From NCBI RefSeq assembly GCF_000285295.1, contig NZ_CADP01000015.1:21816-54366 (forward strand): a stretch of 32,551 nucleotides of DNA, in the 5' to 3' direction. Below are positions 3,771 to 31,196 of this stretch, piece by piece; within the stretch, counting starts at the first letter, position 1; every line of letters starts with the position of its first letter. This stretch comes from Komagataeibacter europaeus LMG 18890. Its GTDB lineage: Bacteria; Pseudomonadota; Alphaproteobacteria; Acetobacterales; Acetobacteraceae. Position numbers and translations under genes: made by a program. Under the pieces are notes generated by a model that had not been told where the DNA came from, did not search any database, and was given only the letters and a program-made list of their open reading frames with translations.

Positions 3771-3846
3771 AAGTTTTTGGATGTCGCCTTTTTTCAAAAA
3801 GGCGGCGTTCCCTGGGGCTTCCTGCAAAAAGCCTCACCAGAAACTT
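3771..3846 (+). repeat. Three-stem intergenic repeat, copy 1
   Basis: This is one of five related elements in the window. The outer arms AAGTTTTTGG (3771-3780) and CCAGAAACTT (3837-3846) pair, with one T-G wobble. They enclose hairpin 1 (CGCCTTTTT 3785-3793 with AAAAAGGCG 3796-3804) and hairpin 2 (GGGGCTT 3814-3820 with AAGCCTC 3829-3835). It lies just after lpd. There is no U-run after either hairpin, so it is not a textbook intrinsic terminator, although it may still end or stabilise the pdh transcript. Confidence 0.85.
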
Positions 3847-3991
3847 CTGACTGTCCGGCGGGCAGGGGGGACGGGCGCGCTGATCGTGCGGTTGTGATCC
3901 CCTGCCGGGACGAAGGCGGCAAGAACGCTTGACGTGGTGGGGCAGGCGTTACACTTCTGGTTATCTGCCTGTTTACGGGAATTTTTGCGTC

Positions 3992-4984
3992 ATGTCCGTG
4001 CGTTTGATGATCGATCACCGGAAGAAAGGGGAGGCCGCGCAGCGGCACCCGGAAAAGGCACACCGGCCCGACAACCCCATCGCGCGCAAGCCCGAGTGGA
4101 TACGCGTGCGCGCGCCCAACCACCCGACCTATCACGAGACGCGCAAGCTCATGCGCGACAACAGGCTGGTCACGGTGTGCGAGGAAGCGGCCTGCCCCAA
4201 TATTGGCGAATGCTGGTCCCAGCGCCACGCCACCATGATGATCATGGGGGAAATCTGCACCCGCGCCTGCGCGTTCTGCAATGTCACCACGGGCCTGCCG
4301 CATGCGCTGGATGCGGACGAACCGCAGCGCGTGGCCGACGCGGTGGCGAAGCTGGGCCTGCGGCATGTTGTCATAACATCGGTGGACCGCGACGACCTGC
4401 CCGATGGTGGCGCGCATCACTTCGCGCGCGTGATCGCGGCCATACGCGCCGCCGCCCCCGACACCACCATCGAAATCCTGACCCCGGACTTCCTGCGCAA
4501 GCCCGGCAGCCTGGAGGTCGTGGTGGCGGCGCGGCCTGACGTATTCAACCACAACCTGGAAACCGTGCCCCGGCTGTATCCCTCCATCCGGCCCGGTGCG
4601 CGGTATTACCAGTCGATGCGCCTGCTCGATGACGTGAAGCGGCTGGACCCGTCCATCTTCACGAAATCGGGACTGATGCTGGGACTGGGCGAAGAACGGC
4701 CCGAAATACTTCAGGTCATGGATGATCTGCGGATTGCGGACGTTGATTTCATCACACTGGGGCAATATCTCCAACCAACAGTGAAGCATGCTGCGGTGGC
4801 ACGGTTTGTCACGCCCGGGGAATTCGACGATTATGCGGGCATGGCCCGCGTGAAGGGGTTCCTGCAGGTCAGTTCCTCGCCACTGACACGGTCGTCGTAC
4901 CATGCGGATTCTGATTTTGCGGAATTGCGCGCCGCACGTGAACAACGCCTGCGGACAGAACGTGGCGCAACGGAGATGAAGTGA
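3992..4984 (+). CDS. lipA: Lipoyl synthase (radical SAM)
   Basis: LipA inserts two sulfur atoms into octanoyl groups on lipoyl domains, producing the cofactor used by the E2 encoded upstream. The 330-residue product has both iron-sulfur motifs: the auxiliary cluster Cys63/Cys68/Cys74 ([12 protein letters not shown]) and the radical-SAM CxxxCxxC at Cys89/Cys93/Cys96 (CTRACAFC). The LipA C-terminal signature around [12 protein letters not shown] is also present. ATG 3992 ([12 protein letters not shown]) is preceded by a weak GGGA about 11 bp upstream. ATG 4007 in the same frame is possible and would remove five residues. The frame is also open upstream to 3929, but that stretch does not look like LipA. 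The stop overlaps the next start by one base (TGATG), which suggests translational coupling. Placement next to the PDH genes fits the shared lipoate chemistry. Confidence 0.95.
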
Positions 4985-5472
4985 TGCCCACCCATGCCGA
5001 ACGTCGGCTTATCGCCTATACCCCCAGCCAGCTTTTTGATCTGGTGGCCGACGTCGGGAAATACCCCCAGTTCCTGCCGTGGTGCACCAGTGCGCGCGTG
5101 CGTACCCGCACGGCGGATGAACTGGTGGCCGACCTGACCATTGGCTTCGGTCCCTTCCTGGAGACGTTCACCAGTCGCGTCCTGCTGGAAGCGCCCGACA
5201 CCATTCGCGTCAGTTATGAAAAGGGACCGTTCCGTTACCTGAACAACGTGTGGACTTTCACCCCGGAACCGCGTGGCTGCCTGGTCGATTTTTTCGTGGA
5301 TTTCGAATTCCGCTCCCGCCTGTTGCAGGCGGCGATCGGCGTGGTGTTCAACGAAGCGGTGCGGCTTATGGTCTCGGCCTTCATCCGCCGGGCGCGTGAC
5401 ATCTATGGCCCGCCGCCCGCCGTCGCCGCACCGCAGCAACCCGTTGGCCCGGCCAAGGCCGGGAACGCCTGA
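4984..5472 (+). CDS. RatA/COQ10-type START-domain protein (putative ubiquinone-binding)
   Basis: This 162-residue protein belongs to the polyketide-cyclase/START-like family that includes yeast COQ10 and E. coli RatA. Family hallmarks are the N-terminal strand [21 protein letters not shown], the YPQFLPWC segment (about residue 29), the central GPFLETFTSRV and the C-terminal helix FNEAVRLMVSAFIRRA. COQ10 relatives bind ubiquinone and support respiration. RatA was first described as a toxin that blocks ribosome association, but for an alphaproteobacterial copy next to lipA the quinone-chaperone role is the better guess. ATG 4984 overlaps the lipA stop; a GTG directly upstream is the alternative. 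The C-terminal tail beyond about residue 142 is Pro/Ala-rich and probably disordered. The family call is firm; the function is inferred. Confidence 0.88.
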   Translation: MPTHAERRLIAYTPSQLFDLVADVGKYPQFLPWCTSARVRTRTADELVADLTIGFGPFLETFTSRVLLEAPDTIRVSYEKGPFRYLNNVWTFTPEPRGCLVDFFVDFEFRSRLLQAAIGVVFNEAVRLMVSAFIRRARDIYGPPPAVAAPQQPVGPAKAGNA

Positions 5473-5513
5473 CGGCCCCCCTTACGTAAAACCGGACAGG
5501 GAAATACCCAATC

Positions 5514-5804
5514 ATGAAAACCATTATGACCGCCATGGCAGGGGGCGTGCTGCTGTGCATGGCGCAGCCTGCGTCCGCAGCACCCGTGCCGTCGCACCAC
5601 GCGGGCAGGGAATCCGTTGCCGCCAGCGACGCGGAAACCGCCGACCTGAATGACCAGAGCCTGCAGAAGGCCCGTGCCTCGCTCAAGACCGCATCGCCCG
5701 CGCCCGTGGCGGCCCCCGGCCACCCGGTCCAGGCCGAGGGCACGGGCCAGACCGCACCGGCCATCCGCGTGCCTGAAACGGGCAGCACGGTCGCCGGATA
5801 TTAA
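5514..5804 (+). CDS. Small secreted Ala/Pro-rich protein
   Basis: I do not recognise a family. The 96-residue product has a clear signal peptide: a short basic start, a hydrophobic core (MAGGVLLCMAQ) and an Ala-X-Ala cleavage site near residues 21-23. The mature part is low-complexity, rich in Ala, Pro and Thr, with no Cys pair or evident domain. It therefore probably enters the periplasm as a short, largely disordered protein. It follows the START-domain gene by 41 bp on the same strand and may belong to the lipA transcription unit. A weak CAGGGA ribosome site lies upstream. Repeat copy 2 starts 20 bp after the stop, where the gene converges on the opposite-strand operon. The codon use and signal peptide argue that it is real. 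Confidence 0.7.
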   Translation: MKTIMTAMAGGVLLCMAQPASAAPVPSHHAGRESVAASDAETADLNDQSLQKARASLKTASPAPVAAPGHPVQAEGTGQTAPAIRVPETGSTVAGY

Positions 5805-5824
5805 TAAACTGTTTGAAAACAATA

Positions 5825-5902
5825 AAAGTTTCCGGACGTCGCCTTTTTTCGAAAAGGCGGCGTTCTTCGAAGCATTTTGAAAAAAGCTTCACCAGGAACT
5901 TT
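5825..5902 (+). repeat. Three-stem intergenic repeat, copy 2
   Basis: The outer arms AAAGTTTCCGG (5825-5835) and CCAGGAACTTT (5892-5902) pair except for one C/A position. Inside lie hairpin 1 (CGCCTTTT 5840-5847 with AAAAGGCG 5852-5859) and hairpin 2 (GAAGC 5869-5873 with GCTTC 5886-5890). It fills the gap between two convergent genes, ending 9 bp from the cinA stop on the other strand. Its orientation matches the plus-strand gene before it. Confidence 0.85.
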
Positions 5903-5911
5903 CATGACGGC

Positions 5912-6415
5912 CTATTCCGCCGATAGGCGCCCCGCATGGTCCAGCAGCAGGGCCAGCGCCGTGCGCACGGCCTGCGTGCGTACATCCCACCGTTCCCCCG
6001 CGAAAAGATGGGACACCGTATCCACCGTGCCGCTGGTGGCCACGGCAAACCAGACCAGGCCCACCGGCTTGCCCGCTGATGCCCCGCCGGGACCGGCAAT
6101 GCCGGTAATGGCGACGGACAGGTTGGCGTCGGGCGCATGGGCCAGCGCGCCCTGCGCCATGGCGGCGGCGACTTCGCGGCTGACCGCGCCGTACTGTTCC
6201 AGCAGTTTCGCGGGCACGCCCAGCGCATGGGCCTTCATGCTGTTGGAATAGGTGACAAATCCGCCGCACACCACGTCAGACGATCCGGCGGCTTCGGTCA
6301 GGGCGGCCGCCAGCAGGCCGCCGGTGCAGCTTTCCGCCGTGACAATCCGGCAGCCCGCCGAACGGAAGCGGGCCAGCGCGTCGGGCATGTGGGCAAGGAA
6401 TGTATCAGGTAACAT
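5912..6415 (-). CDS. pncC: CinA C-terminal-domain protein, nicotinamide-nucleotide amidohydrolase
   Basis: The family deamidates nicotinamide mononucleotide to nicotinate mononucleotide, recycling NMN released by DNA ligase back to NAD. The 167-residue protein is the stand-alone C-terminal domain without the N-terminal molybdopterin-binding-like half, the usual form in many proteobacteria. The conserved TAESCTGG (Ser29), the YSNSMK segment (Tyr56, Lys61) and the AITGIAGPGG loop are all present. It is the last gene of the minus-strand operon terC-slt-pgpA-cinA and starts 31 bp after the pgpA stop. ATG is at 6415. Its stop lies just beyond repeat copy 2, where it converges with the small secreted protein gene. 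Family assignment is strong. Confidence 0.92.
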   Translation of the reverse strand: MLPDTFLAHMPDALARFRSAGCRIVTAESCTGGLLAAALTEAAGSSDVVCGGFVTYSNSMKAHALGVPAKLLEQYGAVSREVAAAMAQGALAHAPDANLSVAITGIAGPGGASAGKPVGLVWFAVATSGTVDTVSHLFAGERWDVRTQAVRTALALLLDHAGRLSAE

Positions 6416-6446
6416 CCGGTATGGTCTCCTTTCCCACCCTAACGCA

Positions 6447-6911
6447 TCACGCCAGGAAACGGATGCCTGTCAGGATGATGCCTGCCATGATTCCGGCCAC
6501 GATATCGTCCCCCATGATGCCCATGGCGTCATGCCTGCGGTCGAACCAGCCCACCGGGCCGGGCTTGGTAATGTCAAACAGGCGGAACAGGGCGAAGGCC
6601 AGCAGCAGCCACAGCACGTCCGCCCACCGCAGGGCGGACAGGCGCAGGGGGGCCAGCGGGAACATGGCCAGCCACATGCCCGCGACCTCGTCGATCACGA
6701 TCCAGCCGTGATCCTCCCCGTTGGAGGCAAGCTGCGTCGCGCGGTAGCCCACCGCCGTGCACACCAGCACCGCCAGCGCCATCCAGATCCAGTGGCCCAG
6801 CAGCGGCACCCCCACGATCAGGGCGGCCAGCGACCCCACCGTGCCCGGCGCGCGCGGGGCGAACCCCGTGCCGCCAAAACTTGCGATCAGGTGGGACAGG
6901 GGACGCGCCAT
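6447..6911 (-). CDS. pgpA: Phosphatidylglycerophosphatase A
   Basis: This integral membrane phosphatase removes the phosphate from phosphatidylglycerophosphate to give phosphatidylglycerol, the substrate of the cardiolipin synthase encoded at 17885. The 154 residues show the family motifs GFAPRAPGTVGSLAAL (residues 16-31), DEVAGM with Asp74/Glu75, FRLFDITKPGPVGWFD and the C-terminal GDDIVAGIMAG, together with several hydrophobic helices. Start and upstream stop overlap as TGATG (the slt stop is read from 6913 to 6911), so translation is probably coupled to slt. Length and motif order are normal for PgpA. Confidence 0.95.
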   Translation of the reverse strand: MARPLSHLIASFGGTGFAPRAPGTVGSLAALIVGVPLLGHWIWMALAVLVCTAVGYRATQLASNGEDHGWIVIDEVAGMWLAMFPLAPLRLSALRWADVLWLLLAFALFRLFDITKPGPVGWFDRRHDAMGIMGDDIVAGIMAGIILTGIRFLA

Positions 6912-8884
6912 CAGCCGTGGCCCAGCGCCGGATCGGTTGCCTGGTAAATGGCCATGTTCTCCTCCACCCGTTCAACGTAGTTGCGTGTCTCCCCGAAGGG
7001 GATGCTTTCGATCCAGTCCAGCATGGCGTCCGGCTGGGGCGTGTCACGCGCGGGGTTGCCCAGTGTCATAAGCCAGGTATCCGTGCGGTTCGGCCCCGCG
7101 TTGTAGGCTGCGGCCACGTACGGCACGGCGCCGCCCATGCGCTGCGCGATATCCGCAAGGAACGCCGCCCCCAGCCGCATGTTCAATTGCGGGTCGGTCA
7201 GGCTGGCCGCGCTGACATTCACGTTCAGCCCGGCCTTGCGCGCGACTTCCCGCGCCGTGGGAACCAGCAGCTGCATCAGGCCCACCGCGTGGGCGGGGCT
7301 GACCACGCCCGCGTCAAAGCCGCTTTCCTGTCGCGCCACCGCCAGTTCCACATCGGCGGGCAGGGTGGATGTCGGCGGGTCATAGGCACGCGGCCAGCCT
7401 TCATGCACCAGCGTCAGCCCGTCCCTGCCCGCCAGGCGGGCCACCATCACGGCGGCATCGGGGATACCCAGCCGGGTGGCCATGCGCGCGGCCAGCACGT
7501 GCTTCATCGGGCCGGTATCCTGCGCATCAAGGGCAAGGATGAAGTCACGGGCATGGTGCCGATCGCCCCACGCCACCAGTATCTCGGCCGCGCGGGCCAG
7601 GTCGCTGGTGTCGAAATGCACGGAATCGGCCACGCCGGGCGTGGGTTCACGTTCGCGCAGCAGGTAGCCGCGGATCTGGCGGCCCGCCTGATCGGGCACG
7701 ATCAGCTGGTTCATGCTGTCGCCCGCCAGCCGTTCAATGGCCATCTGCCCGTAAAACGTGTTGGCCAGCGCCGCCGCCTGCTGCCACTGCGCCTTTGCCG
7801 GTCCATGCCGTCCCTGCGCCCACAGCGCGCGCCCGGCCCAGTACAGCCCGCGACTGCGGGTAATGACGGGCACCGCCTGCGCCAGGGGCGTGAAGTCCGC
7901 CAGCGCGTGGTCGGCGTCATGCAGGTATTCCAGCCGGATCCACCCGGTCAGGAACAGGGCGTCGTAATGCGTGGCCGACCCGGTATCGGCGCTGTCATTG
8001 GCCATGAACAGCGCGTCATCCGTGCGGTGGGCCAGCAGCAGGTCGCGCGCCATGGCGTCGCGTTCGCGCCAGAAAACCGCGGCGACCGCCGGGGTCTGCT
8101 GCTTTTCGGTTTCCACCCCGCGCGCATGCCACAGGGACAGTGCCTCATCCAGCCGCTGCGCATGGTGCAGCCAGCGCAGGCGGTCCAGCACCAGCGCGCC
8201 ATCGGCCTGCTGTTCGGGCGGAAGGGTGGCCAGCGTGTTTTCGGCATCGGGGTCATTGCGGCGGAAGGCCAGGCGCGCGCGCGCGACGGGCTGCTGGCCG
8301 GTGTCCAGCATGGGAACCTGCCGTGTCGCCGCATCGATCCGGCCCGCGCGTTCCTGCCGGTCGAATCGCAGCCAGTGGTCCTGTGGCGTCAGCACGGGGC
8401 CGAAGGCGGACAGCATGGCCTGCGCATCGGGCTGCGTATCCGCGCGGTTGACCCATGCCACCCGCGCCCAGCTGTCCAGTGCTGCGGGGCGGGGCGTTGC
8501 ACGCGCGCAGCGCACCAGCGCATGCACGTCCGTCAACTGCTGGCGGTCGCACAACGCGCCTGCCACCGCGTCATCGGGTTCGGCCGCCAGTTTCTGCTGG
8601 AAACGCGCCAGCAGCAGCGCGCGCTGCGGCCATGACGGGTTTTCGTCCACGAACGTCGCATATTCCTCCGCCGTGCCGCTGCCCGACAGCAGGCGCAGGT
8701 AGACCAGCAGCTTCGCCGCGACGGGATCATCATCGGCATTGCCGGTCGCGGCCTGTCCCGGCGTGGGCCAGTTGCCCTGCGGCGCGGCGGGGGCAGGGGC
8801 CGCATGCAGCGGGGACGCGGCCAGCAGCAGCGCCAGCCCCGCGGCAAGGCCCCGGGCTGCGACGGGACCAGCCCGGCGCGGCAT
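6911..8884 (-). CDS. slt: Soluble lytic murein transglycosylase (Slt70-like)
   Basis: This periplasmic enzyme cleaves the MurNAc-GlcNAc bond of peptidoglycan and forms 1,6-anhydro ends. The 657-residue product has a signal peptide (AARGLAAGLALLLAASPLHA, residues 9-28), then a long alpha-helical superhelix region of about 450 residues typical of Slt70. The C-terminal goose-lysozyme-like SLT domain starts near residue 510. The catalytic Glu520 lies in RQESGFD, followed by GLMQLLVPTA and YVAAAYNAGPNR. I chose ATG 8884 because it directly precedes the signal peptide and overlaps the terC stop (TAATG). A longer reading frame upstream lies inside terC and lacks secretion features. The gene sits between terC and pgpA, each joined by an overlap of one to three bases. 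Confidence 0.93.
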   Translation of the reverse strand: MPRRAGPVAARGLAAGLALLLAASPLHAAPAPAAPQGNWPTPGQAATGNADDDPVAAKLLVYLRLLSGSGTAEEYATFVDENPSWPQRALLLARFQQKLAAEPDDAVAGALCDRQQLTDVHALVRCARATPRPAALDSWARVAWVNRADTQPDAQAMLSAFGPVLTPQDHWLRFDRQERAGRIDAATRQVPMLDTGQQPVARARLAFRRNDPDAENTLATLPPEQQADGALVLDRLRWLHHAQRLDEALSLWHARGVETEKQQTPAVAAVFWRERDAMARDLLLAHRTDDALFMANDSADTGSATHYDALFLTGWIRLEYLHDADHALADFTPLAQAVPVITRSRGLYWAGRALWAQGRHGPAKAQWQQAAALANTFYGQMAIERLAGDSMNQLIVPDQAGRQIRGYLLREREPTPGVADSVHFDTSDLARAAEILVAWGDRHHARDFILALDAQDTGPMKHVLAARMATRLGIPDAAVMVARLAGRDGLTLVHEGWPRAYDPPTSTLPADVELAVARQESGFDAGVVSPAHAVGLMQLLVPTAREVARKAGLNVNVSAASLTDPQLNMRLGAAFLADIAQRMGGAVPYVAAAYNAGPNRTDTWLMTLGNPARDTPQPDAMLDWIESIPFGETRNYVERVEENMAIYQATDPALGHG

Positions 8885-9489
8885 TACGCGGCCCCTCCCA
8901 CATGGGTCCAGATCTCGCCCCCGCCCTTGACGATCAGTTCGATCGCCACCGCCAGCACCACCAGCAGCCCGACCCACGAAATCCAGCGATAACGTTCCAG
9001 CAGGCGCGCGATCAGCGATGCCGCCACCGCCATCAGCACCACCGATATGACCAGCCCCGCCACCAGCACGCCCATGTGCTCGCCCGCGGCGCCAGCCACG
9101 GCCAGAACGTTATCAAGGCTCATGGACAGGTCGGCCACGATGATGCGGATGATGGCGTTGCGCAGGGACGCAGGTGCGGGGGTATCGCCTTCGGCATGGG
9201 CGTCGCCGCGCATTTCGCGGTACATGCGCCAGCACACCCACAGCAGCAGAAGCCCGCCCGCCAGCGTCAGCCCGATGATGGCCAGCAGCCTGACCGCCAC
9301 CAGCGCCAGGCAGATCCGGATCACCGCCGCCCCCAGCACACCGCACAGGATGGCGATTCGGCGCGAGGCGTGCGGCAGGTTGCGCACCGCCATGCCCACC
9401 ACGATGGCGTTGTCCCCCGCCAGCGTCACGTCAATCAGGACAACCTGCGCCAGTGCGTAAAGGGAGGAGGCGGAAAAAATGGCGGACAT
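8884..9489 (-). CDS. TerC/YjbE-family integral membrane protein (putative metal exporter)
   Basis: This 201-residue polytopic membrane protein has the two inverted TerC repeats, each with an acidic motif inside a helix: DVTLAGDNA (residues 20-28) and DLSMSLDNVLAVAG (about 119-132). The repeats are joined by a charged cytoplasmic loop (about 90-107). TerC proteins of this YjbE-like size have been linked to manganese efflux and to metal loading of exported proteins. The exact ion here is not visible. It is the first gene of the minus-strand operon, so its promoter must lie in 9490-9715, shared with the divergent purB. An AGGAA ribosome site lies about 11 bp upstream of ATG 9489. I saw no manganese riboswitch-like structure upstream. 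Confidence 0.88.
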   Translation of the reverse strand: MSAIFSASSLYALAQVVLIDVTLAGDNAIVVGMAVRNLPHASRRIAILCGVLGAAVIRICLALVAVRLLAIIGLTLAGGLLLLWVCWRMYREMRGDAHAEGDTPAPASLRNAIIRIIVADLSMSLDNVLAVAGAAGEHMGVLVAGLVISVVLMAVAASLIARLLERYRWISWVGLLVVLAVAIELIVKGGGEIWTHVGGAA

Positions 9490-9656
9490 GGGCAGATACG
9501 TTCCTGGGACAATGGGCCATGGCGGGGATGGCGCGGGGTTTCACAATCGCTTTATGCCGTTTGCCGCCCGCATCATGCAAACACACCCGTTCCGGCGCGT
9601 GATATATGCCACGTTATGAATCACAGGTGAATATAAGGGAGACGCACGCGGCAGAA

Positions 9657-9686
9657 TTGGCTAGGAAGGCCGCCTGATCCTGTATT
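9657..9686 (+). promoter_or_regulatory. Candidate sigma-70-type promoter for purB
   Basis: TTGGCT (9657-9662) and TGTATT (9681-9686) are separated by 18 bp and lie about 30 bp before the purB start. They are the best -35/-10 pair I can see in the 226-bp divergent region between terC and purB. The matches to consensus are moderate, so this is a suggestion only. Apart from this pair I see no operator or riboswitch in 9490-9715. Confidence 0.3.
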
Positions 9687-9715
9687 GTCCGTTTGCTGCA
9701 AGGAAGCCCGAGAAC

Positions 9716-11068
9716 ATGGTACCGCGCTATACCCGTCCCGTCATGGCCGCCATCTGGTCGCCCGAGAACCGTTACCGCATCTGGTTCGAGATCGAGGCCT
9801 TGGCCTGTGAAGCCATGGCGGAATATGGCGCGATCCCGGCCGAGGCCGCAAAGACCATCCGCACGAAGGGCGACGCCGCCATGGCCGCCTTTTCACAGGC
9901 CGATCTGGACCGCATTGATGAAATCGAGGCCGAAACCCGCCACGACGTGATCGCGTTCCTGACGTGGCTGGCGGAAAAGGTGGGGCCGGACAGCCGCTTC
10001 GTGCATCTGGGCATGACATCGTCCGACGTGCTGGACACCTGCCTGTCGGTGCAGATGGTGCAGGCCACCGACCTGCTGCTGGCCGACCTTGACGCGGTGC
10101 TGGTGGCGCTGAAGCGCCGGGCGTTCGAACACAAATACACCCTGACCATCGGCCGCAGCCACGCAATCCATGCCGAACCGACATCATTCGGCCTGAAGAT
10201 CGCAGGGCATTACGCCGAATTCGCCCGCAACCGTGAACGCCTGCTGCGCGCGCGCGACGAAATCGCCGTCTGCGCCATTTCCGGCGCGGTGGGCACCTAT
10301 GCCCATATCGACCCGCGCGTTGAGGAATACGTGGCCGCGAAGCTGGGCCTGAAGCCCGAAGGCGTGTCCACGCAGGTCATCCCGCGCGACCGGCATGCCG
10401 CGTATTTCTGCGCGCTGGCCGTGATCGCCAGCGGGATCGAGCGCCTGGCCACCGAAGTGCGCCACCTGCAGCGTTCGGAAGTGCGCGAGGCGGAGGAGTT
10501 CTTCCACAAGGGGCAGAAGGGTTCGTCCGCCATGCCGCACAAGCGCAACCCGGTGCTGTCGGAAAACCTGACGGGCCTGGCCCGCCTCGTGCGCTCGCAC
10601 GTCATCCCGGCGCTGGAAAACGTGGCGCTGTGGCATGAACGTGACATCAGCCATTCCTCGGTCGAGCGCAACATCTGCCCCGATGGCACGATCGGGCTGG
10701 ACTTCGCGCTCATGCGGCTTGCGGGGATGATGGAAAAGCTGGTGGTCTATCCTGACCAGATGCAGGCCAATATCGACAGCCTCGGCGGCGTGGTGCATTC
10801 GGGCGAGGTGCTGCTGGCGCTGGCGCGCGCGGGCATCCTGCGCGAGGACGCGTACCGGATCGTCCAGCGCAACGCCATGGAGACATGGACCAGGCTGGGC
10901 CGCAAGGATGCGAAGACCTTCCGCGAAAACCTGGACGCCGACCCCGAGGTCGCGGGCCGGGTGCCGCCCGAAGTGCTGGACGCGGCCATGGACAGCAATG
11001 CCCACCTGCGCCAGATCGACCATACCTACAGCCGCGTGTTTGGTGAGCCGGGCCCCGCGCGGGCCTGA
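9716..11068 (+). CDS. purB: Adenylosuccinate lyase
   Basis: PurB catalyses two fumarate-releasing steps: SAICAR to AICAR in IMP synthesis, and adenylosuccinate to AMP. The 450-residue protein has the fumarase/aspartase superfamily signature SSAMPHKRNP (Ser270 to about Pro279) on the mobile catalytic loop. It also has GRSHAIHAEPTSFG with the catalytic-type His149 and the N-terminal MTSSDVLDT motif. It resembles the shorter, Bacillus/Thermotoga-like PurB type, not the E. coli type. ATG 9716 has an AAGGAAG ribosome site about 10 bp upstream. It opens the purine cluster that continues with purC, purS, purQ and purL, and is divergent from terC. Confidence 0.96.
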   Translation: MVPRYTRPVMAAIWSPENRYRIWFEIEALACEAMAEYGAIPAEAAKTIRTKGDAAMAAFSQADLDRIDEIEAETRHDVIAFLTWLAEKVGPDSRFVHLGMTSSDVLDTCLSVQMVQATDLLLADLDAVLVALKRRAFEHKYTLTIGRSHAIHAEPTSFGLKIAGHYAEFARNRERLLRARDEIAVCAISGAVGTYAHIDPRVEEYVAAKLGLKPEGVSTQVIPRDRHAAYFCALAVIASGIERLATEVRHLQRSEVREAEEFFHKGQKGSSAMPHKRNPVLSENLTGLARLVRSHVIPALENVALWHERDISHSSVERNICPDGTIGLDFALMRLAGMMEKLVVYPDQMQANIDSLGGVVHSGEVLLALARAGILREDAYRIVQRNAMETWTRLGRKDAKTFRENLDADPEVAGRVPPEVLDAAMDSNAHLRQIDHTYSRVFGEPGPARA

Positions 11069-11119
11069 CCACACGGACCACACCGTGGCCTGACGCAAAC
11101 AACAGCAGGATATCAAGGC

Positions 11120-11863
11120 GTGTGCACAGTCGTCATTTCCCACGACCAGGCCCAGGAATGGCCGCTGCTGATGGCGGCCAACCGTGATGAACGCCTTGAC
11201 CGGCCCTGGCTGCCGCCGGGGCGGCACTGGGTGGACCAGCCCGATGTCGTGGGCGGGCAGGACCAGGTCGCGGGCGGGTCGTGGCTGACGCTGAATGACG
11301 CGGGTGTCGTGGCGGGCATCATGAACCGCGTGGGCAGCCTTGGCCCGATGCCGGGCAAGAATTCACGCGGGGCGCTGCCGCTGCTGGCCGGGCGCTTTCC
11401 CACCGCGCGCGACGCCGTGGCGCATATCGCCACGATCGACGCGGGCGCGTGGCGGTCGTTCAACATGATCGTGGCCGATGGGGACAGCGCCTTCTTCATC
11501 CGTGGTCCCGGCTATGGCCGACCACAGGTCGAACCGCTGGCGCCGGGCGTGCACATGGTCGCCACCACCGACCCCGATGACATGGCCATGCCGCGCATCG
11601 CCCGCCACCTGCCGCGTTTCCGCGCGGCCCGGCGCCCGGTGCCGCCGCAGTGGACGGCGTGGACCACGCTGCTGGCCGACCGTTCGCTGCCTGCGGGCAG
11701 CGAACTGAACATCCCGCCGCGTTCGGGCTTTGGCACCTGCAGTTCATCGGCCATCGGGGTGGCGCGCGACGGGCGGCATTCATGGTTTTTCGCCGCCGGC
11801 GCCCCGGACCGCGTGGGCTACCAGCCCGTCAACCTGTCGGCCCCGGGCGCGCGGGCAGGGTAA
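11120..11863 (+). CDS. NRDE/TANGO2-family protein
   Basis: This 247-residue protein belongs to the TANGO2 (DUF833, NRDE) family found in bacteria and eukaryotes. The start is GTG and the sequence opens MCTVVI, placing the conserved Cys at position 2, as expected if Met removal exposes an N-terminal nucleophile. The name-giving Asn21-Arg22-Asp23-Glu24 follows in ANRDERLDRPW. Later motifs include GSWLTLNDAGVVAGIMNR and, near the end, GTCSSSAIGVARDG. Biochemistry is unsettled: Ntn-hydrolase-like chemistry, heme trafficking and lipid or CoA roles have all been suggested for relatives. It lies between purB and purC on the same strand, 51 bp after purB and 95 bp before purC, so it is probably co-transcribed. 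No signal peptide or membrane segment is visible. Confidence 0.9.
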   Translation: MCTVVISHDQAQEWPLLMAANRDERLDRPWLPPGRHWVDQPDVVGGQDQVAGGSWLTLNDAGVVAGIMNRVGSLGPMPGKNSRGALPLLAGRFPTARDAVAHIATIDAGAWRSFNMIVADGDSAFFIRGPGYGRPQVEPLAPGVHMVATTDPDDMAMPRIARHLPRFRAARRPVPPQWTAWTTLLADRSLPAGSELNIPPRSGFGTCSSSAIGVARDGRHSWFFAAGAPDRVGYQPVNLSAPGARAG

Positions 11864-11958
11864 ATATGGTATCTTCCGGGCCGGATCGCTGCTATGCCAT
11901 GCGCATCATCAGGGATCATGCCGACAACGGATCCCGCAGCGTTATGTGAAGGACGAGT

Positions 11959-12720
11959 ATGGGCCGCCGCCAGCTTTACGAAGGAAAAGCCAAGATCCTT
12001 TTCGAGGGGCCCGAACCGGGCACCCTCGTGCAGTATTTCAAGGATGACGCCAGCGCCGGCAACGGCGCGAAAAAGGGCGTCATCACCGGCAAGGGGGTGC
12101 TGAACAACCGTATCAGCGAACACCTCATGCTGCGGCTGCACGATATCGGGATTCCCACCCATTTCATCCGCCGCCTGAACATGCGCGAACAGCTGATCCG
12201 CGAAGTCGAGATCATTCCGCTGGAAGTCGTGGTGCGCAACGTCGCGGCGGGTTCGCTGTCCAAGCGGCTGGGCATTCAGGAAGGCACGCGCCTGCCGCGC
12301 CCGATCATCGAATTCTATTACAAGAATGACGCCCTGAACGACCCGATGGTGAGCGAGGAGCACATCACCGCGTTCGGCTGGGCCTGCCCGCATGACATGG
12401 AAGACATCGTGTCGCTGAGCATGCGCATCAACGACTTCCTGTGCGGCCTGTTCATGGGCATCGGCATCATCCTTGTCGATTTCAAGCTGGAATTCGGCCG
12501 CCTGTTCGAAGGCGACAACATGCGTATCGTGCTGGCGGATGAAATCTCGCCCGATAACTGCCGCCTGTGGGACGCCAAGACCAGCGAGAAGCTGGACAAG
12601 GACCGTTTCCGCAAGGACATGGGCAAGGTTGAGGAAGCATATCAGGAAGTCGCGATGCGCCTGGGTATCCTGCCCGAGGCCACGAATTCCGACATGAAGG
12701 GACCGGAGGTAATGCAATGA
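11959..12720 (+). CDS. purC: Phosphoribosylaminoimidazole-succinocarboxamide synthase (SAICAR synthetase)
   Basis: PurC joins CAIR and aspartate with ATP to make SAICAR, the substrate of PurB encoded upstream. The 253-residue length is normal. Family motifs are the N-terminal [11 protein letters not shown], the ATP/substrate region [32 protein letters not shown] and the metal/substrate motif DFKLEFGR, followed by [17 protein letters not shown] 11959 has an AAGGA ribosome site 6 bp upstream. Its stop overlaps the purS start as ATGA (12717-12720), the first of four consecutive such overlaps. Confidence 0.97.
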
Positions 12721-16247: not shown

Positions 16248-16266
16248 GGCAGGAGTTTTAAGCCAG

Positions 16267-16500: not shown

Positions 16501-16537
16501 TCACGGATTCTTACCCCCAACGCAGGAAACGAAAACA

Positions 16538-16873: not shown

Positions 16874-16900
16874 GTGCCTGCGCACCATAACGTGGTGGAT

Positions 16901-16943
16901 CGGGACGGGCGGGACAGAAATGTTCCGCCCGTTTCCCGTTTTG
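16901..16943 (+). terminator. Intrinsic-terminator-like hairpin after grxD
   Basis: A GC-rich stem joins 16901-16916 to 16921-16938 around a GAAA tetraloop (16917-16920), with core arms CGGGCGG and CCGCCCG and a two-base bulge. A short T-rich stretch (GTTTTG) follows. It lies 28 bp after the grxD stop and before the next gene, so it likely closes the purine/bolA/grxD unit. Confidence 0.75.
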
Positions 16944-17357: not shown

Positions 17358-17372
17358 TCCCGGGCAGCGGCC

Positions 17373-19312: not shown

Positions 19313-19368
19313 GGCGGGGTGAATTGACAGGGTCGGGCGGGCATGCCTACCATTGCATATGAGCAATA

Positions 19369-19447
19369 AAAGTTTCCGGGTGCCGCCTTTTTTCAAAAGG
19401 ACGGCGTATTCCGAAGCTTGTTGAAAAAAGCTTCACCCAAAACCTTT
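19369..19447 (+). repeat. Three-stem intergenic repeat, copy 3
   Basis: The outer arms AAAGTTTCCGGG (19369-19380) and CCCAAAACCTTT (19436-19447) pair with three mismatches. Hairpin 1 is GCCG-CCTTTT with AAAAGG-A-CGGC (one bulged A), and hairpin 2 is GAAGCTT with AAGCTTC. It lies after cls and before the membrane b-type cytochrome gene. The orientation is the same relative to the preceding gene as in the other copies. Confidence 0.8.
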
Positions 19448-19515
19448 GCCACCTTCCATCAACGGCTTTCTCTGAAGCAGTCCCTTATGGCCATGCCACA
19501 TATATCGCGTGTCGC

Positions 19516-25945: not shown

Positions 25946-26709
25946 CTAAAGGATGCCGATACGATGCAGTAATTTTTCGGACAGGTGCGCTATTTTATTG
26001 TCGGGTTCCGGTCTCAGGTCGGAAAATTTTATTTTGGGCGGATTGAATTTCTTTATTTCTGCAGTTCTGGTTTCAAACATTTCCATGAACTTGAGGGGAT
26101 CGCTCCAGTCCAGCATGTTCAGGTCCCAGTACGCATAATCCCACCATCTGGACCGCAGCATTTTTTCAATGATGTTTTCATTGAACCGCATTCTTATTAT
26201 CCTGGCCGGGTTTCCGCCAACTATGGCGTATGGGGGAACATCTTTCGTGACCACGGATCCCGCTGCGACGACCGCGCCATCGTGGATTGTGACGCCACCC
26301 TTGACCATTACGTTTGCACCGATCCAGCAGTCATTCCCGATGACAATTCTTCCGTAATCAGAATTGAATGGCAGGAGATTCCAGTTTTTTTATGGGAATG
26401 CGCCAGATTCCGGTAAAAATCATCAGTGACAACCGGACTGGACGTTACGGAATTCAGGGGATGGGATCGACTGAAATCGCCAAACCCATGGGAGATGGAT
26501 GAATACCTGCCTACGGTGACATCCGCGTAAATTTTTGAAAAGGAATAGGAAAAGGCGCCACACTGGAACAGCGTGCTGTTCTTGAACCAGGAATAGATTT
26601 CTATTTCGGCCAGATCATTCCAGAAACGTAAATATATTGATTTATTGTCAACGTTTATATGATTGAGATTAAGGGTATTAATTATTTTTTTATTTATAAG
26701 AATTTTCAT
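25946..26709 (-). pseudogene. CatB/XAT-like hexapeptide acetyltransferase, frameshifted at a poly-A tract
   Basis: Two adjoining reading frames together encode one left-handed beta-helix acyltransferase of about 254 residues. The 5' part (to about 26392) has VGRYSSISHGFGDFSRSHPLNS, split here as VGRYSSISHGF and SRSHPLN, where the His is catalytic in CatB relatives. The 3' part reads [40 protein letters not shown] and a C-terminal WWDYAYWDL. The frame is lost in the run of seven A (minus strand; T 26385-26391). An eighth A would restore continuous sequence ([15 protein letters not shown]). ATG 26709 (MKILINKK) is the likely start. The region is clearly richer in A+T than its neighbours, which suggests acquisition by transfer. 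Relatives acetylate antibiotics or exopolysaccharide sugars; the substrate is unknown. A sequencing error or slippage-based expression remains possible. Confidence 0.8.
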
Positions 26710-26905
26710 TACAACCAATATATATTTTTAATATAACTTCTTGAAATTTTATATATGAAAAATACGCAGTCGATACATATTATGGACATGTGGAATGACC
26801 TGAAGAAACTTCGGCTTCGGGGGCGCGTTTTTCCTATCGGATAGGGCATGCGCGGCCATGCCGACATGTCGATAATGCAGAAACTGAAAGACAGGTAAGG
26901 GTATC

Positions 26906-27202
26906 ATGAAAAAAACGGTGATTCTGGCAGGGCTGTGCGCAACCGGGCTGAACGTGGCGATGCTGGTGCCCGCGCTGGCGGATTCCTGCGACGGCGTGAC
27001 GGATCATGCGGAATGTGAAGTGCGCCTGAAATCCCATGAAACCAGCAGGGAGACCCGTGAAAAGGCCCATGAAGCGCATGAAAAGGCCGCGTAAAAGACC
27101 GACAGCGCCAAGGACTGGGGCGACCGGACCGGCAAGAAACTGGATAACTGGGGCCACAAGACCAAGGGCGACATGAGCCAGTTTTTCACCGGGCATCGCT
27201 AA
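26906..27202 (+). pseudogene. Small secreted protein interrupted by an in-frame TAA
   Basis: The frame starts with ATG 26906, encodes a signal peptide (MKKTVILAGLCATGLNVAML, cleavage near ALA) and a charged mature segment (SCDGVTDHAECEVRLKSHE, then KAHEAHEKAA). It then meets TAA at 27092-27094. The same frame stays open afterwards for 35 more codons of similar, Lys/Asp/Trp-rich character (DWGDRTGKKLDNWGHKTKGD, SQFFTGHR) to a second TAA at 27200-27202. One base change (for example TAA to AAA or GAA) would restore about 98 residues. No family is recognised. The 62-residue short form could still be secreted. The call as broken rests on continuity of composition, so confidence is moderate. Confidence 0.6.
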
Positions 27203-27242
27203 TTGAAATAACGCAGCAGCCGGAAACTTCGGTATTGAATGG

Positions 27243-27280
27243 CGAAAGGGGGCGGTGCCAGATGGCGCCGCCCCCTTTCG
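27243..27280. terminator. Long GC-rich hairpin between convergent small genes
   Basis: A 17-bp stem pairs 27243-27259 with 27264-27280 around an AGAT loop, with a single T-G wobble. The outer arms are CGAAAGGGGGCGG and CCGCCCCCTTTCG. It lies 40 bp after the second stop of the broken secreted-protein gene and 18 bp beyond the stop of the opposite-strand gene, so a bidirectional terminator is the likely role. No T-run follows on either strand. Confidence 0.65.
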
Positions 27281-27298
27281 TGCATTCATGCCCCGCGA

Positions 27299-27487
27299 TC
27301 AGGAATGGTGGTGATCGCCTGCCTCATGCTCGCGCCAGCCTTCTTCCAGCGTGTGAAGGAAGGTCTTGAAATGCTTCTTCACCTCGGCAGGGGATGCTTT
27401 TTCCATCACGTCCTTTTTCGCGGCCGTCAGGGTGGCGGCGGCGTGGATCAGGGCGGCGTGGATGACGTTTGTCGGTTCTTTGGCCAT
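27299..27487 (-). CDS. Small conserved-looking cytoplasmic protein, His-rich tail
   Basis: I do not recognise a family. The 62-residue product (MAKEPTNVIHAALIHAAATL at the start) is predicted mostly helical, rich in Ala, Lys and His, with the middle DVMEKASPAEVKKHFKTFLH and a His-rich end (EAGDHHHS). No signal peptide is visible. ATG 27487 is preceded by GGGAGA, a good ribosome site; a longer frame to 27562 lacks one and is not preferred. It is divergent from the glycine-rich secreted protein at 27670, and a long hairpin lies just past its stop. Confidence 0.6.
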   Translation of the reverse strand: MAKEPTNVIHAALIHAAATLTAAKKDVMEKASPAEVKKHFKTFLHTLEEGWREHEAGDHHHS

Positions 27488-27669
27488 GTCGGTATTCTCC
27501 CGTTGGATTGATGGGCAGAGGATGAAAGATGCCACGATGGCTGGCAACCATTGCCCCTGCATGACTGCCGTTCCCTGACACCCCTTGAAACCGCGCGGGA
27601 TCGGGACGGGGGAACCCGCGCCACGGTCCGCCGTTGAACGTCCTGAACACCAATCCGATGGGATAAGAT

Positions 27670-27966
27670 ATGTTTTTCAGGCGTACCGCACTGGCCCTTG
27701 CCACCACGACTGTCCTCGTCCTGCCGCTTGCGGCGCGGGCGGAACCGGGGGGCTGCGTGAAGGGGGCCGTCGCCGGTGGCGTGGCGGGGCATTTCGTTGG
27801 CAGTGGCCATGCCAAGGGCGGGGCGGCTGCCGGATGTGCCGCAGGCATGGCGCGACGCCACCATGCGCGCAAGGAAGCGCGTGAAAACCAGCAGCAGCCC
27901 GAAAATGGCCCGCCGGAAGGGGGATCGCAGCCCGCGTCCCCGCCGCCCGGTAACGGCGGTCAGTAA
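27670..27966 (+). CDS. Small secreted glycine-zipper-like protein
   Basis: The 98-residue product has a signal peptide (RRTALALATTTVLVLPLAARA, cleavage near residue 24, shown as RRTALALATTTVLVLPL then AARA). A Gly/Ala-rich stretch with two Cys follows (GGCVKGAVAGGVAGHFVGSG, then GGAAAGCAAG). Small residues recur at intervals as in glycine-zipper membrane segments of outer-membrane or envelope proteins. The C-terminal third is Pro/Gly/Gln-rich and disordered. No enzyme motif is present; an envelope role is inferred only. It converges on the membrane protein gene at 28077 with repeat copy 4 between them. Confidence 0.7.
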   Translation: MFFRRTALALATTTVLVLPLAARAEPGGCVKGAVAGGVAGHFVGSGHAKGGAAAGCAAGMARRHHARKEARENQQQPENGPPEGGSQPASPPPGNGGQ

Positions 27967-27979
27967 AAGGTCAAGGCAG

Positions 27980-28056
27980 AAGTTTCTGGCGAAGCGTTTT
28001 TCCAGAACGCTTCGGAAAACGCCGTCTTTTGCAAAAAAGGCGGCGCCCAGAAACTT
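27980..28056 (-). repeat. Three-stem intergenic repeat, copy 4 (opposite orientation)
   Basis: The outer arms AAGTTTCTGG (27980-27989) and CCAGAAACTT (28047-28056) pair perfectly. On the plus strand, hairpin 2 comes first (CGAAGCGTT 27990-27998 with AACGCTTCG 28006-28014), then hairpin 1 (GCCGTCTTTT 28021-28030 with AAAAGGCGGC 28035-28044). The element is therefore oriented with the minus-strand gene whose stop lies 20 bp away. This is the best-paired copy. Confidence 0.85.
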
Positions 28057-28076
28057 TTTTTACCTTGTATCATCCG

Positions 28077-29405
28077 TCATGGCACGGACCGGACGGACGA
28101 TGCCCCCATGGCGCGTGCGAAACACATGGTCAGCATGTTGTGCGGGTCGGGGTTGATGCCTACGAAAATGATGTCCTTGCGCACATACAGCAGCTTGTGC
28201 CGTGGCCCCATCGTGACGCGGGGCAGGACGACCGGCTGGTCACGCGCCACCTGTTCGCGCGTGCTAGCCACCCGGTCGTGGCTTATGCGCGCCAGAAGCA
28301 CAAGGTCAGGCACCACAATGGCCATATGCATGACAGCCAGCCCGGCACAGCCCGATGTCATGACCCAACTGAAAACCCGCCCGGCGGGGCAGGTGAACAG
28401 CAGGCAGGTCAGGTAGCACACCAGCAGCACGCTGGCGGGAAAGGATACCCGCGCGGCCAGTGCTTCGCGCGGGAACATGAGCAGCAGCGCCATATAGGCC
28501 AGCGCCAGCCCGACAAACCATGCCCCATGCCCCGCACGCCGGCAGGCGGGAAAGGGGGTCTGCCGCCGCCCCAGGAACAGGCCGGTGCCGATCACCGCCA
28601 CGAATGGCAGCCAGAACGGGTCAAACAGGCTGCCAAGATTGCCCAGCAGCCCATCCAGCCGGTCCATGACCGGGCTGGGCGTCATGGTGCGCATGCGCAC
28701 ATAGTTGCCTGGCGCGATTCCCAGTACCAGCGTGCCCATGCCGTGGCTGCACAGCAGCGCCCACGGCGCGCGCCGTCCCCGCTTCCACGCCCGCACCGCG
28801 TCCCCCGCCAGCACCAGCGTCAGCAGCAGCGAAAGCGGTTCAAGGAAGGTGGAGATCAGGAAAACGGCGCCATGCTGCACCCCGTTCATGTCCGTGCGGC
28901 GGGACAGGATGCGCGCCAGCAGCCACATTTCCCCCGCAACAGGCCACAGATAGCCAATGGCCCCGGTTTTCCATAACGCGACCTCACCAATGGTGCGCGG
29001 CAGCCACCACAGCATGAGAAACACGAGCAGGTACTGCACCATGCCGTCCCGCCAGCAGGCAGGGGGGGGCCGCCCCGCCACCGCGCGGCACATATGCACC
29101 ACGACATGCACCAGAAAGGTGAAGATGCCCGCATTCACCACCGCAAAGGCCGCAAGCGACCCATAGGGCCGCAGGTCCAGCACGAAAAAGGTTGCCAGCG
29201 TGGTGAACCACCGCCCGGTCCAGAAATTGTAGTTGCCCCATACGATGCGCATGATGGTGGCGGGGTGGAACGGCATGGTGCGGCAGTAATCATCCGCCCA
29301 TAGCGGCGTGACCCAGTTGGCCCACAGCAGGAACATGAAGCATAGCGCCAGCCCGACCCGTTCACCGGGTTCGGGGCGGGGGGGAATGCATGCGGATGGT
29401 TTCAT
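28077..29405 (-). CDS. DUF6056-like polytopic membrane protein
   Basis: The 442-residue protein has about ten hydrophobic helices and resembles the DUF6056 family of bacterial membrane proteins, which share a glycosyltransferase-C-like appearance. Features are an early periplasmic acidic motif WADDYCR (about 36-42) followed by NYNFWTGRWFTT, then GEVALWKTGAIGYLWPVAGE, and IAPGNYVRMRTM. The Asp-Asp after the first helix is reminiscent of GT-C enzymes that use lipid-linked sugars, but this is an analogy. The C-terminal 75 residues are soluble. Surface polysaccharide modification would be a reasonable first guess for function. ATG 29405 has no strong ribosome site. Repeat copy 4 follows its stop. 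Confidence 0.75.
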   Translation of the reverse strand: MKPSACIPPRPEPGERVGLALCFMFLLWANWVTPLWADDYCRTMPFHPATIMRIVWGNYNFWTGRWFTTLATFFVLDLRPYGSLAAFAVVNAGIFTFLVHVVVHMCRAVAGRPPPACWRDGMVQYLLVFLMLWWLPRTIGEVALWKTGAIGYLWPVAGEMWLLARILSRRTDMNGVQHGAVFLISTFLEPLSLLLTLVLAGDAVRAWKRGRRAPWALLCSHGMGTLVLGIAPGNYVRMRTMTPSPVMDRLDGLLGNLGSLFDPFWLPFVAVIGTGLFLGRRQTPFPACRRAGHGAWFVGLALAYMALLLMFPREALAARVSFPASVLLVCYLTCLLFTCPAGRVFSWVMTSGCAGLAVMHMAIVVPDLVLLARISHDRVASTREQVARDQPVVLPRVTMGPRHKLLYVRKDIIFVGINPDPHNMLTMCFARAMGASSVRSVP

Positions 29406-29610
29406 TCGATACTGGGCCCCTGCCGGTCCGGGATTTCACCATGACGGGCATCCCTACGGAAAAATGATGCGGTCTGGCCACGGGGGCCGTTCGTGCAATT
29501 GATCCGTGACCGGGGTTGTATCATGGATCGATGCCGTCGCATCGCCTATGAATCCATCCTGACCGGCCCCGTCAATCACGATCATGCCGGAGATCAGGGG
29601 ATAGAGCCAC

Positions 29611-31065
29611 GTGTTACAGCCTGCCGATCAATCCGTCTCCCCCCCGCATGGCGCGGTGCCCGCCGCTCCGGCCACTGCCGGGTCGCCCCCGCCATCCGCC
29701 GGTACGGGCGGGGCTGCGGCGCGCGCGGCCCTGACCACTGCCTGCGCGGGACTGCTGGTGGGGCTGGATACCGGCCTGATCGCGGAGGCGCTGGGCTTCA
29801 TCGGCCATGATTTCCATGCCTCTGCCCGGGCGCAGGAATGGGTCGTGTCGGTGCTGATGGTGGGCGCGCTGCTGGGATCCGGGGCGGCAGGCGTGTTTTC
29901 CAGCCGCTTTGGCCGCAGGCTGGCGCTGGGCACGGCCACGCTGCTGATCGGGCTGGGGGCGCTGTTATGCGCCACGGCGGGCCTGATCGGGCAGATCCTG
30001 CTGGGGCGGTTCCTGATCGGGATGGCCATTGGCATCTGCACCTTTACCGCGCCGCTGTATATTTCCGAACTGACGACGGGGCGCATGCGCGGCACCATGG
30101 TGACCACCTTTTCCATGCTGCAGTCGGCGGGCATCCTGCTGGGGTACCTGGCGGGCGGCATCCTGTCGGGTGGTGGGCACTGGCGGCTGATGGTGGGGCT
30201 GCCGGTCATTCCGGCGGCGCTGCTGTTCATGGGGTGCGCGTTCCTGCCGTCCAGCCCGTCATGGCTGGCGGCAAAGGGCCGGTTCGAGGACGCCCGCAAG
30301 GTCCTGCGCAGCCTGCGTGGGGATGAGGTGACGGCAGACCGGGAACTGGACAACATCCGCCGCGAACTGGGCGCGGGCAAGCCGGTGGGGGGATTCGCCC
30401 TGCTGCGCACCAGGCCGTTTTTTCGCCGCTCCGTCGCCCTTGGCATCGGGTTGCAGGTCATGCAGCAGCTGACCGGCATCAATGTGGTGATGTATTACGC
30501 GCCCAAGATTCTGGAAGGGGCGCATTTCGGCACCGCCGCCGCCGCATGGGCCACGGTCATGGTCGGCGCGGTCAACGCGGTCGTGGGCGTGCTGGCCATT
30601 TTCATGGTTTCACGCTGGGGGCGCAGGCCGCTGCTGGTGACAAGCTGCATCATCATGGCGGTGGCCCTGGCCGCGGCGGGCGTGATCGAGGGGATGCACC
30701 TGACCGGACTTGGCGCGGTGCTGGCGCTGGTGGCGGCGTTGCTGGTGTTCGTGGCGGGCTTTGGCATGGGGGCCGGGCCGCTGGTGTGGACCCTGTGTTC
30801 GGAAATCCAGCCGATCGAGGGACGGGACTTTGGCGTCGCCTGCTCTACGCTGGCCAACTGGGGCATGGACTGGGCGGTCAGCAACACGTTCCTCAGCATC
30901 GTGGCGGTTGCAGGGGCGGGCTGGACCTTTGCCGGTTTCAGCGTGATGAACGTGGTGTTCGTGCTGTTTACGCTGGCACTGGTGCCCGAAACCCGTGACG
31001 TGCCGCTGGAGGTGATCGAACAGCATCTGGAAGCCGGCCGGCCGCTGCGTGAAATCGGGCGTTAG
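29611..31065 (+). CDS. MFS sugar porter family transporter
   Basis: The 484-residue, 12-helix transporter belongs to the sugar porter family (GalP, XylE, AraE relatives), which imports hexoses or pentoses with protons. Hallmarks are GLLVGLDTGLIAEAL in helix 1, SSRFGRRLALG in the helix 2-3 loop, GRFLIGMAIGICTFTAPLYISEL (in parts GRFLIGMAIG, APLYISEL), QQLTGINVVMYYAPKI from residue 285, SRWGRRPLL and the PETRDVPLEVIE end, a variant of PETKG. The usual PESPRWL is replaced by PSSPSWL. The N-terminal 37 residues are Pro/Ala-rich. GTG 29611 is preceded by AGGGGAT and is taken as start. The 205-bp gap before it shows no clear regulator site. The sugar is unknown. Confidence 0.92.
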   Translation: MLQPADQSVSPPHGAVPAAPATAGSPPPSAGTGGAAARAALTTACAGLLVGLDTGLIAEALGFIGHDFHASARAQEWVVSVLMVGALLGSGAAGVFSSRFGRRLALGTATLLIGLGALLCATAGLIGQILLGRFLIGMAIGICTFTAPLYISELTTGRMRGTMVTTFSMLQSAGILLGYLAGGILSGGGHWRLMVGLPVIPAALLFMGCAFLPSSPSWLAAKGRFEDARKVLRSLRGDEVTADRELDNIRRELGAGKPVGGFALLRTRPFFRRSVALGIGLQVMQQLTGINVVMYYAPKILEGAHFGTAAAAWATVMVGAVNAVVGVLAIFMVSRWGRRPLLVTSCIIMAVALAAAGVIEGMHLTGLGAVLALVAALLVFVAGFGMGAGPLVWTLCSEIQPIEGRDFGVACSTLANWGMDWAVSNTFLSIVAVAGAGWTFAGFSVMNVVFVLFTLALVPETRDVPLEVIEQHLEAGRPLREIGR

Positions 31066-31128
31066 ACCTGATTGACAGGTGGATTGTTCAGGGCTGCCTG
31101 AAAATAATTTATTGGTAAATTTAAGTAA

Positions 31129-31196
31129 AAAATTTTCTGTATGCCGCCTTTTTTTAAGGCGGCATTATTTTTGAAAATATTCACTTAAAATTCTTT
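31129..31196 (+). repeat. Three-stem intergenic repeat, copy 5 (decayed, AT-rich)
   Basis: Hairpin 1 is perfect (TGCCGCCTT 31142-31150 with AAGGCGGCA 31156-31164, T5 loop). The left flank AAATTTTCTGTATGCC and right flank GAAAATATTCACTTAAAATT align with the other copies, but the outer stem and hairpin 2 have decayed. It lies 63 bp after the sugar transporter stop and 50 bp before the IS element. Confidence 0.7.

Follow-up and report, generated by a model that had tools for sequence, protein, structure and literature searches.

Repetitive extragenic palindromic (REP) sequences are short palindromic repeats that lie outside genes, at gene 3' ends. The pneumococcal SPRITE is a dispersed and structured repeat of 30 copies that resembles a miniature inverted-repeat transposable element (MITE), lies near gene 3' ends, is enriched between convergent genes and was possibly co-opted as a terminator; it consists of one 18-bp stem and a U-rich tract, with the terminal inverted repeats (TIRs) AAAA/TTTT and no established target duplication (PMC3049150). 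The ERIC/IRU, YPAL and NEMIS/Correia MITEs are intergenic, fold as RNA and are thought to alter the stability of neighbouring mRNA, and the accessible part of their description mentions no preference for stop codons (PMC2229807). Insertion sequences (IS) of the IS1031 type prefer TNA targets and generate a 3-bp repeat (PMC12016507). Here we describe a family of repeats of which five copies lie in a window of 32,551 nucleotides (the whole stretch of DNA analysed, positions 21816-54366 of its contig) from the 4.2-Mb draft genome of Komagataeibacter europaeus LMG 18890. A first-pass annotation of the window had listed these five copies as a 76-79 bp unit, and all five are present, copies 1-4 as strong members and copy 5 as a decayed one.

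The Komagataeibacter repeat can be told apart from each of these systems. Unlike SPRITE, it has two hairpins on an outer stem without a U tract, TIRs of 15 bp, a TNA duplication and at least 150 copies; from the ERIC/IRU, YPAL and NEMIS/Correia MITEs, compared by description only, it differs in its association with stop codons, and from REP sequences in its IS5-type ends and larger composite structure. It shares with IS5-family MITEs and IS1031-type insertion sequences ends of the kind GAGnCTGTTTGnAAA and the TNA duplication, differing from them in that it carries no transposase gene and that its interior is a conserved three-way-junction fold placed behind stop codons. With moderate confidence, we interpret the repeat as a MITE, the core of which would be kept for its use as a bidirectional structure at mRNA 3' ends.

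Terminal repeats and movement of the element

The size given in the first-pass annotation applies to the core only; full-length copies measure about 162 bp and end in 15-bp TIRs (GAGACTGTTTGAAAA) that lie outside the coordinates reported there. A search of the loci read, allowing at most 3 of 15 mismatches per end, yielded 41 distinct two-ended elements, 35 of them 157-164 bp and the other 6 126-154 bp long; these short elements (126-164 bp) have no transposase gene, and all 41 contain the core, which scores weakly (14-36 bits) in three. Identical TNA trinucleotides, that is, a 3-bp target duplication, flank 24 of the 41, an identical trinucleotide other than TNA flanks one, and 16 show no duplication. 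The duplicated TNA is the stop codon of the neighbouring gene in 7 of the 24 duplication-bearing copies, one of which agrees with the annotated end of a coding sequence in K. nataicola. Remnants of the terminal repeat (at least 12/15) stand directly 3' of the stop at 10 of 222 element-bearing stops and at 0 of 420 others, and in the read regions of the window's genome TAA is commoner as the stop codon of genes preceding the element (75/222) than of other genes (73/420), which is expected if insertion at TNA picks stop codons.

An intact IS5-family element of 883 bp in a relative (genome G060, locus L339) has a left TIR, GAGCCTGTTTGAAAA, that differs from the MITE end at 1 of 15 positions; it is flanked by TAA and TTA and is a candidate driver of the MITE. 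Related IS1031-like transposases occur in 17 of the 19 Komagataeibacter genomes (E 1e-30); in the window's own genome, the ends of one intact copy were read and are different, GAGCCTGATCCGAAAG. Since the terminal repeats and the TNA duplications are accompanied in the genus by an IS5-type element with nearly the same ends, the repeat is very probably a MITE family resembling the IS1031-type elements of the IS5 family, and this origin is well supported. The proposal of a REP/MITE-like family serving as mRNA 3'-end structure therefore stands as far as the MITE is concerned, and its second half stays an interpretation. The annotation knew of no described family with this form; this agrees with Rfam, in which nothing in the window reaches the gathering score, so that a known Rfam family was rejected, and not with the ends, which match a known class of transposon end. 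One repeat copy searched against phage records gave no match, and among the matches listed from the open-access literature none described a repeat of this kind in Komagataeibacter or Gluconacetobacter. One Komagataeibacter genome (G090) has 41 matches to an IS1031-like transposase, and the copy read there (L458) has the ends GAGCCCGATCCGAAAGTTTTT.

Mobility of the repeat is well supported by comparisons between species. Copies 1 and 2 enclose a gene whose protein has its closest relatives in Komagataeibacter sp. FXV3 (98% identity) and K. swingsii (97%), which supports the annotation's guess at the genus. At the first site, FXV3, K. swingsii and K. rhaeticus have the element as the window does, and K. 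xylinus and K. saccharivorans lack it; at the site of copy 2 it has one orientation in the window and K. xylinus, the reverse in K. swingsii, and is missing in FXV3. Sixty-nine K. swingsii copies have both flanks in read regions of the window's genome, where 48 have a counterpart of like orientation and 9 a reversed counterpart, 12 being unmatched; reciprocally, 61 copies of the window's genome gave 47, 9 and 5, the unmatched groups in both directions including several clusters or weak hits and not clean empty sites; an exactly restored empty target was not found. Copies are thus reversed at 9 of the 57 sites common to the two genomes. About six of the nine were judged by eye to be reversals in place; separate insertion fits better for two pairs (L401/L185 and L419/C321), in which no alignment adjoins the element, and for the site of copy 2, where a full-length form in one genome faces a short one in the other. 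In another genus, a plasmid of N. hansenii that was typed as conjugative harbours two full-length copies, one 95.7% identical to the query over 99% of its length and the other flanked by TAA at both ends.

Placement behind genes and the folded core

The family was followed with a covariance model (R1) of 32 copies, 30 of them from a DNA search of the genome (window copies 3 and 4 included) together with window copies 1 and 2. R1 matches number at least 150 in the window's genome (all of the 150 candidates scored, out of 1,848 first-look candidates), are found in 19 of 19 Komagataeibacter genomes (own included), from 52 to at least 150 in each, and occur in 15 of 80 genomes sampled across Acetobacteraceae, own genome included. 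One whole contig of 311 kb (C321) holds 18 copies by profile search.

The placement of these copies downstream of genes is strongly non-random. Genes were called by a codon-usage script and left uncurated, the calls in the window looking sensible. Of 150 copies in the window's genome, 80 lie between convergent genes, 46 in tandem sense, 14 in tandem antisense and 5 in divergent context, 2 in gene calls and 3 without a neighbour, and a gene points at the copy in 140 of the 145 with two gene neighbours. Where a sense gene lies upstream (127 copies), the median distance from stop to element is 24 nt, one tenth exceeding 113 nt. On C321, among gaps of at least 90 bp, a copy occupies 11 of 12 that are convergent, 5 of 70 that are tandem and 1 of 28 that are divergent (convergent versus divergent, p = 6e-8), or 12 of 26, 5 of 181 and 1 of 30, respectively, with no length limit, counts in which the element itself lengthens the gap that holds it. 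In K. swingsii, in regions chosen because they contain copies, 69 of 139 copies have convergent neighbours, 35 are tandem sense and 24 tandem antisense, and 5 have divergent neighbours; of the others, 3 fall within gene calls and 3 at edges. Random placement, which the annotation had named as evidence against its proposal, is not what was found; the fixed orientation it reported holds for its five copies and not for the family, where it is rejected by the antisense tandem copies and by the nine reversed shared sites. Even among the five, the orientation of copies 2 and 4 is uninformative, because convergent genes flank copy 2 and, probably, copy 4. Full-length copies are convergent less often than core copies (7/23 versus 80/145, p = 0.04). 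That core copies stand tighter to the stop than full-length ones was not borne out, as a gene points at 22 full-length copies and 11 of these have their edge at most 23 nt from the stop.

In agreement with the first-pass annotation, no terminator-like site with a U run overlaps copies 1-3 in a scan of window positions 1-20000 (copies 4 and 5 lie outside the scan), and an ordinary intrinsic (Rho-independent) terminator was rejected on this ground. Hairpin 1 is followed by a mixed C/U linker, not by a U run; this linker is almost pure pyrimidine, at most 9 of the 73 pattern-readable copies (of 150) having a purine at any of its first six positions, and pairing does not explain its composition. 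By a simple scan, ordinary terminators are rare in the genome. They were found at 2 of 68 tandem ends with the element and at 20 of 191 without (p = 0.07), a hint, confined to tandem ends, that the element replaces them. At two loci (L171 and C321 near position 98101) ordinary bidirectional terminators adjoin the repeat within the same convergent gap.

The predicted fold of copies 1-4 is a three-way junction, and that of copy 5 is hairpin 1 within a short outer stem, so that the outer stem with two hairpins described for all five copies is recovered in four. On the annotated strand the five copies fold better as RNA than shuffled sequence (z -3.4 to -5.1); the opposite strand also does so in four of the five, and in copy 1 only weakly (z -1.42). 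The paired changes that the annotation had noticed extend to the family: in the 32-copy alignment 11 of 31 pairs have changed on both sides, against 4.9 +/- 1.4 in shuffles, none of 500 reaching 11. In 48 orthologous copy pairs, whose cores differ by a median of 16%, double changes that keep the pairing number 22, against 10.4 +/- 3.0 in 1,000 shuffles (largest 21). A TIR of at least 11/15 is found on either side in 48 of 148 copies and on both sides in 8, a level that one control stretch per side reaches, and in 100 of 148 the core is kept without a recognisable TIR (11/15). Most of the cores found, in a search that favours good cores, have outlived their ends. Selection on the fold is likely.

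Relatives in other genera and competing explanations

Low-scoring matches in other genera have an outer stem and two hairpins with different stems (for instance CTCCC/GGGAG, CTTC/GAAG and GTTC/GAAC instead of GCCGCC/GGCGGC), a few loci having one hairpin only. Twenty-four such loci were read (three from the nearest genus, G073), with 11 copies in tandem, 8 in convergent and 0 in divergent context, 3 at edges and 2 in gene calls; in an alignment of 14 of these other-genus sequences, both-side changes affect 8 pairs (reached by 10 of 500 shuffles) and 19 cells (reached by 0 of 500). A second model (R3), built from other-genus sequences and run with strict filters on at most about 30 scored candidates per genome, matches 24 of 150 Acetobacteraceae genomes, which belong to 16 of the 102 genera, the genus of the window among them; from a class-wide sample of 142 genomes it picks out the window's own genome only. 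Twenty further copies from three other genera comprise 15 tandem, 2 divergent and 1 convergent copies and 2 in gene calls, with a median of 13 nt to the stop and each of the 15 tandem copies within 32 nt of it. The outer stem in these three genera forms, by eye, an inverted repeat of about 20 bp that encloses closely similar copies, an arrangement that also looks mobile, and the Komagataeibacter TIR is nearly absent there (1 of 72 flanks reaches 11/15, versus 0 of 71 control stretches). Short A and T runs and the architecture make homology across genera likely. The core may predate the MITE form, since a comparable architecture built of other stems is found in other genera, where the copies read hardly ever bear these TIRs. 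Permuted relatives on Pseudoroseomonas cervicalis plasmids (L429 and L430) have, by eye, two such hairpins flanking a long stem of outer-stem arms with a GC-rich hairpin inside; that of L429 lies between convergent genes.

The sequence of events that we envisage begins with the element being moved in trans by a transposase of the IS1031 type. The stop codons TAA and TGA conform to TNA whichever strand is read, and an insertion there would thus copy the stop codon and leave the protein intact. The ends would then decay. The core, whose outer stem with two hairpins can fold on either strand, would be kept downstream of genes, above all between convergent ones, presumably because the RNA, once folded, marks the 3' end of the mRNA or protects it, by stalling 3' exonucleases, by aiding the end of transcription, or both; the core itself is possibly older than the MITE form. 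For the role at mRNA 3' ends, which is our best guess, the case is evenly poised. A wider version, held tentatively and below even confidence, is that a family-wide bidirectional mRNA 3'-end module of Acetobacteraceae became cargo of an IS1031-type MITE in Komagataeibacter, spreading by way of TNA and stop codons, kept by compensatory change and reversible in place. Should this hold, mRNA 3' ends throughout a genus would come from a mobile element, whose 3-bp target rule helps to explain harmless entry behind genes; transcription ends in these cellulose-producing bacteria would become more predictable, a set of bidirectional 3' parts would be at hand for engineering, and sites found with, without and with reversed elements would form a natural experiment on how bacterial repeats become functional RNA.

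Several observations weigh against a MITE core retained for the host's 3' ends. Neither hairpin has a U run behind it, so the element is no standard intrinsic terminator; ordinary terminators are found at 19 of 171 convergent ends with the element and at 5 of 37 without (p = 0.78); the sense bias, strong in the window's genome, is weak in K. swingsii (p = 0.19); and, in the three other genera, the next gene follows 7 of the 15 tandem copies at a distance of 10-31 nt and two of the 20 copies are divergent, which is odd for a terminator. As to the fold, of the single changes between orthologous copies, 178 leave a pair disrupted in one of the two species and 93 preserve it, so that pairing is far from strict, and the double changes could stem from replacement by another copy. 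The RNAalifold consensus on one copy alignment (A3) favours a different pairing, no more than 8 of 32 copies, with non-standard pairs dropped, have the designated three-way junction within 3 kcal/mol of their minimum, and the likeness of hairpins 1 and 2 in several other genera goes so far that one long hairpin is predicted there. The excess of cores without ends is partly a matter of ascertainment, as the search favours good cores.

Much of this would suit a purely selfish MITE, whose placement reflects its TNA preference and the purging of harmful insertions and whose fold serves its own movement as DNA and does nothing for the host. The TIR and target duplication signature, the sites that differ between species, the ordinary terminators that coexist with the repeat and the many pair-breaking single changes all fit, and in pneumococcus SPRITE, RUP, BOX and even IS elements are enriched between convergent genes, for which the authors name tolerance as a possible cause (PMC3049150). 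We nevertheless consider it rather unlikely, given that end-less cores outnumber those with ends (the search bias noted), that pairing-keeping double changes between orthologous copies exceed chance, and that other genera have the core almost without these TIRs; the rarer convergent position of full-length copies, too, would follow from a retention that depends on place, though tolerance could have this effect as well.

The distribution of R3 across the family, the tight tandem placement in the three other genera and the near absence of the Komagataeibacter TIR there would also suit an ancient terminator-like or exonuclease-blocking element of Acetobacteraceae that spread otherwise, its IS1031-type ends being secondary in Komagataeibacter and explaining recent copies only. 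The outer-stem inverted repeat around very similar copies in those genera has a mobile look of its own, however, and the cross-genus homology leans on short runs and architecture; we consider this account unlikely. Size, palindromic form, extragenic position downstream of genes and reversal at shared sites recall REP sequences, and the repeat could be a DNA element of that kind, bound at gene ends by a nucleoid protein, gyrase or a REP-associated transposase (RAYT); the ends of full-length copies and the TNA duplications are those of an IS5-type element, and we regard this alternative as very improbable.

Copies in the window and their neighbours

The features of the window are collected in Table 1. 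The R1 scores of copies 1-4 are not independent, these copies being members of the model, and copy 5 lies outside it.

Table 1. Copies of the repeat and a terminal-repeat remnant in the window
Feature	Coordinates	Strand	Scores and remarks
Copy 1, core three-way-junction element	3766..3851	+	R1 87.8 bits (inside R1 alignment); nhmmer 81.6 bits; fold z -3.93
Left TIR remnant of copy 2, TAAACTGTTTGAAAA	5805..5819	+	GACTGTTTGAAAA with 1 mismatch at 5807-5819
Copy 2, core element	5819..5905	+	R1 91.9 bits (inside R1 alignment); fold z -5.09
Copy 3, core element	19364..19448	+	R1 86.6 bits (inside R1 alignment); fold z -3.35
Copy 4, core element	27976..28062	-	R1 87.1 bits (inside R1 alignment); folds on both strands, z -4.32 and -6.27
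Copy 5, decayed member	31127..31198	+	R1 34.6 bits, E 8e-8; nhmmer alignment covers 31127-31168 only

Copy 1 starts 10 nt past the stop of a dihydrolipoamide dehydrogenase-like gene (2346-3755 +) and is followed by a gene call at 4007-4984 +. Copy 2 is flanked by convergent genes, 5514-5804 + and the CinA-like 5912-6415 -, and its left-repeat remnant stands immediately 3' of the stop codon TAA (5802-5804). Copy 3 lies 51 nt past the stop of a PLD-family gene (17885-19312 +), the next gene beginning at 19516 +, and copy 4 lies 14 nt past that of a DUF6056 gene (28077-29405 -), a weaker open reading frame (27670-27966 +) terminating on its opposite side. Copy 5, in which hairpin 1 is intact and hairpin 2 is lost, lies 61 nt past the stop of an MFS sugar transporter gene (29656-31065 +).

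Beside copy 4, positions 25946-27966 hold only short, weakly scoring gene calls on both strands, which are possibly decayed genes. The right end of the window (31247-32551) is a complete-looking insertion sequence with DUF772 and DDE domains; its ends, CTGGAGACCCGCAAAAACCGG, differ from those of the repeat, and it was rejected as the parent on that account. The contig stops exactly at the right end of this insertion sequence, which indicates that the assembly broke there.

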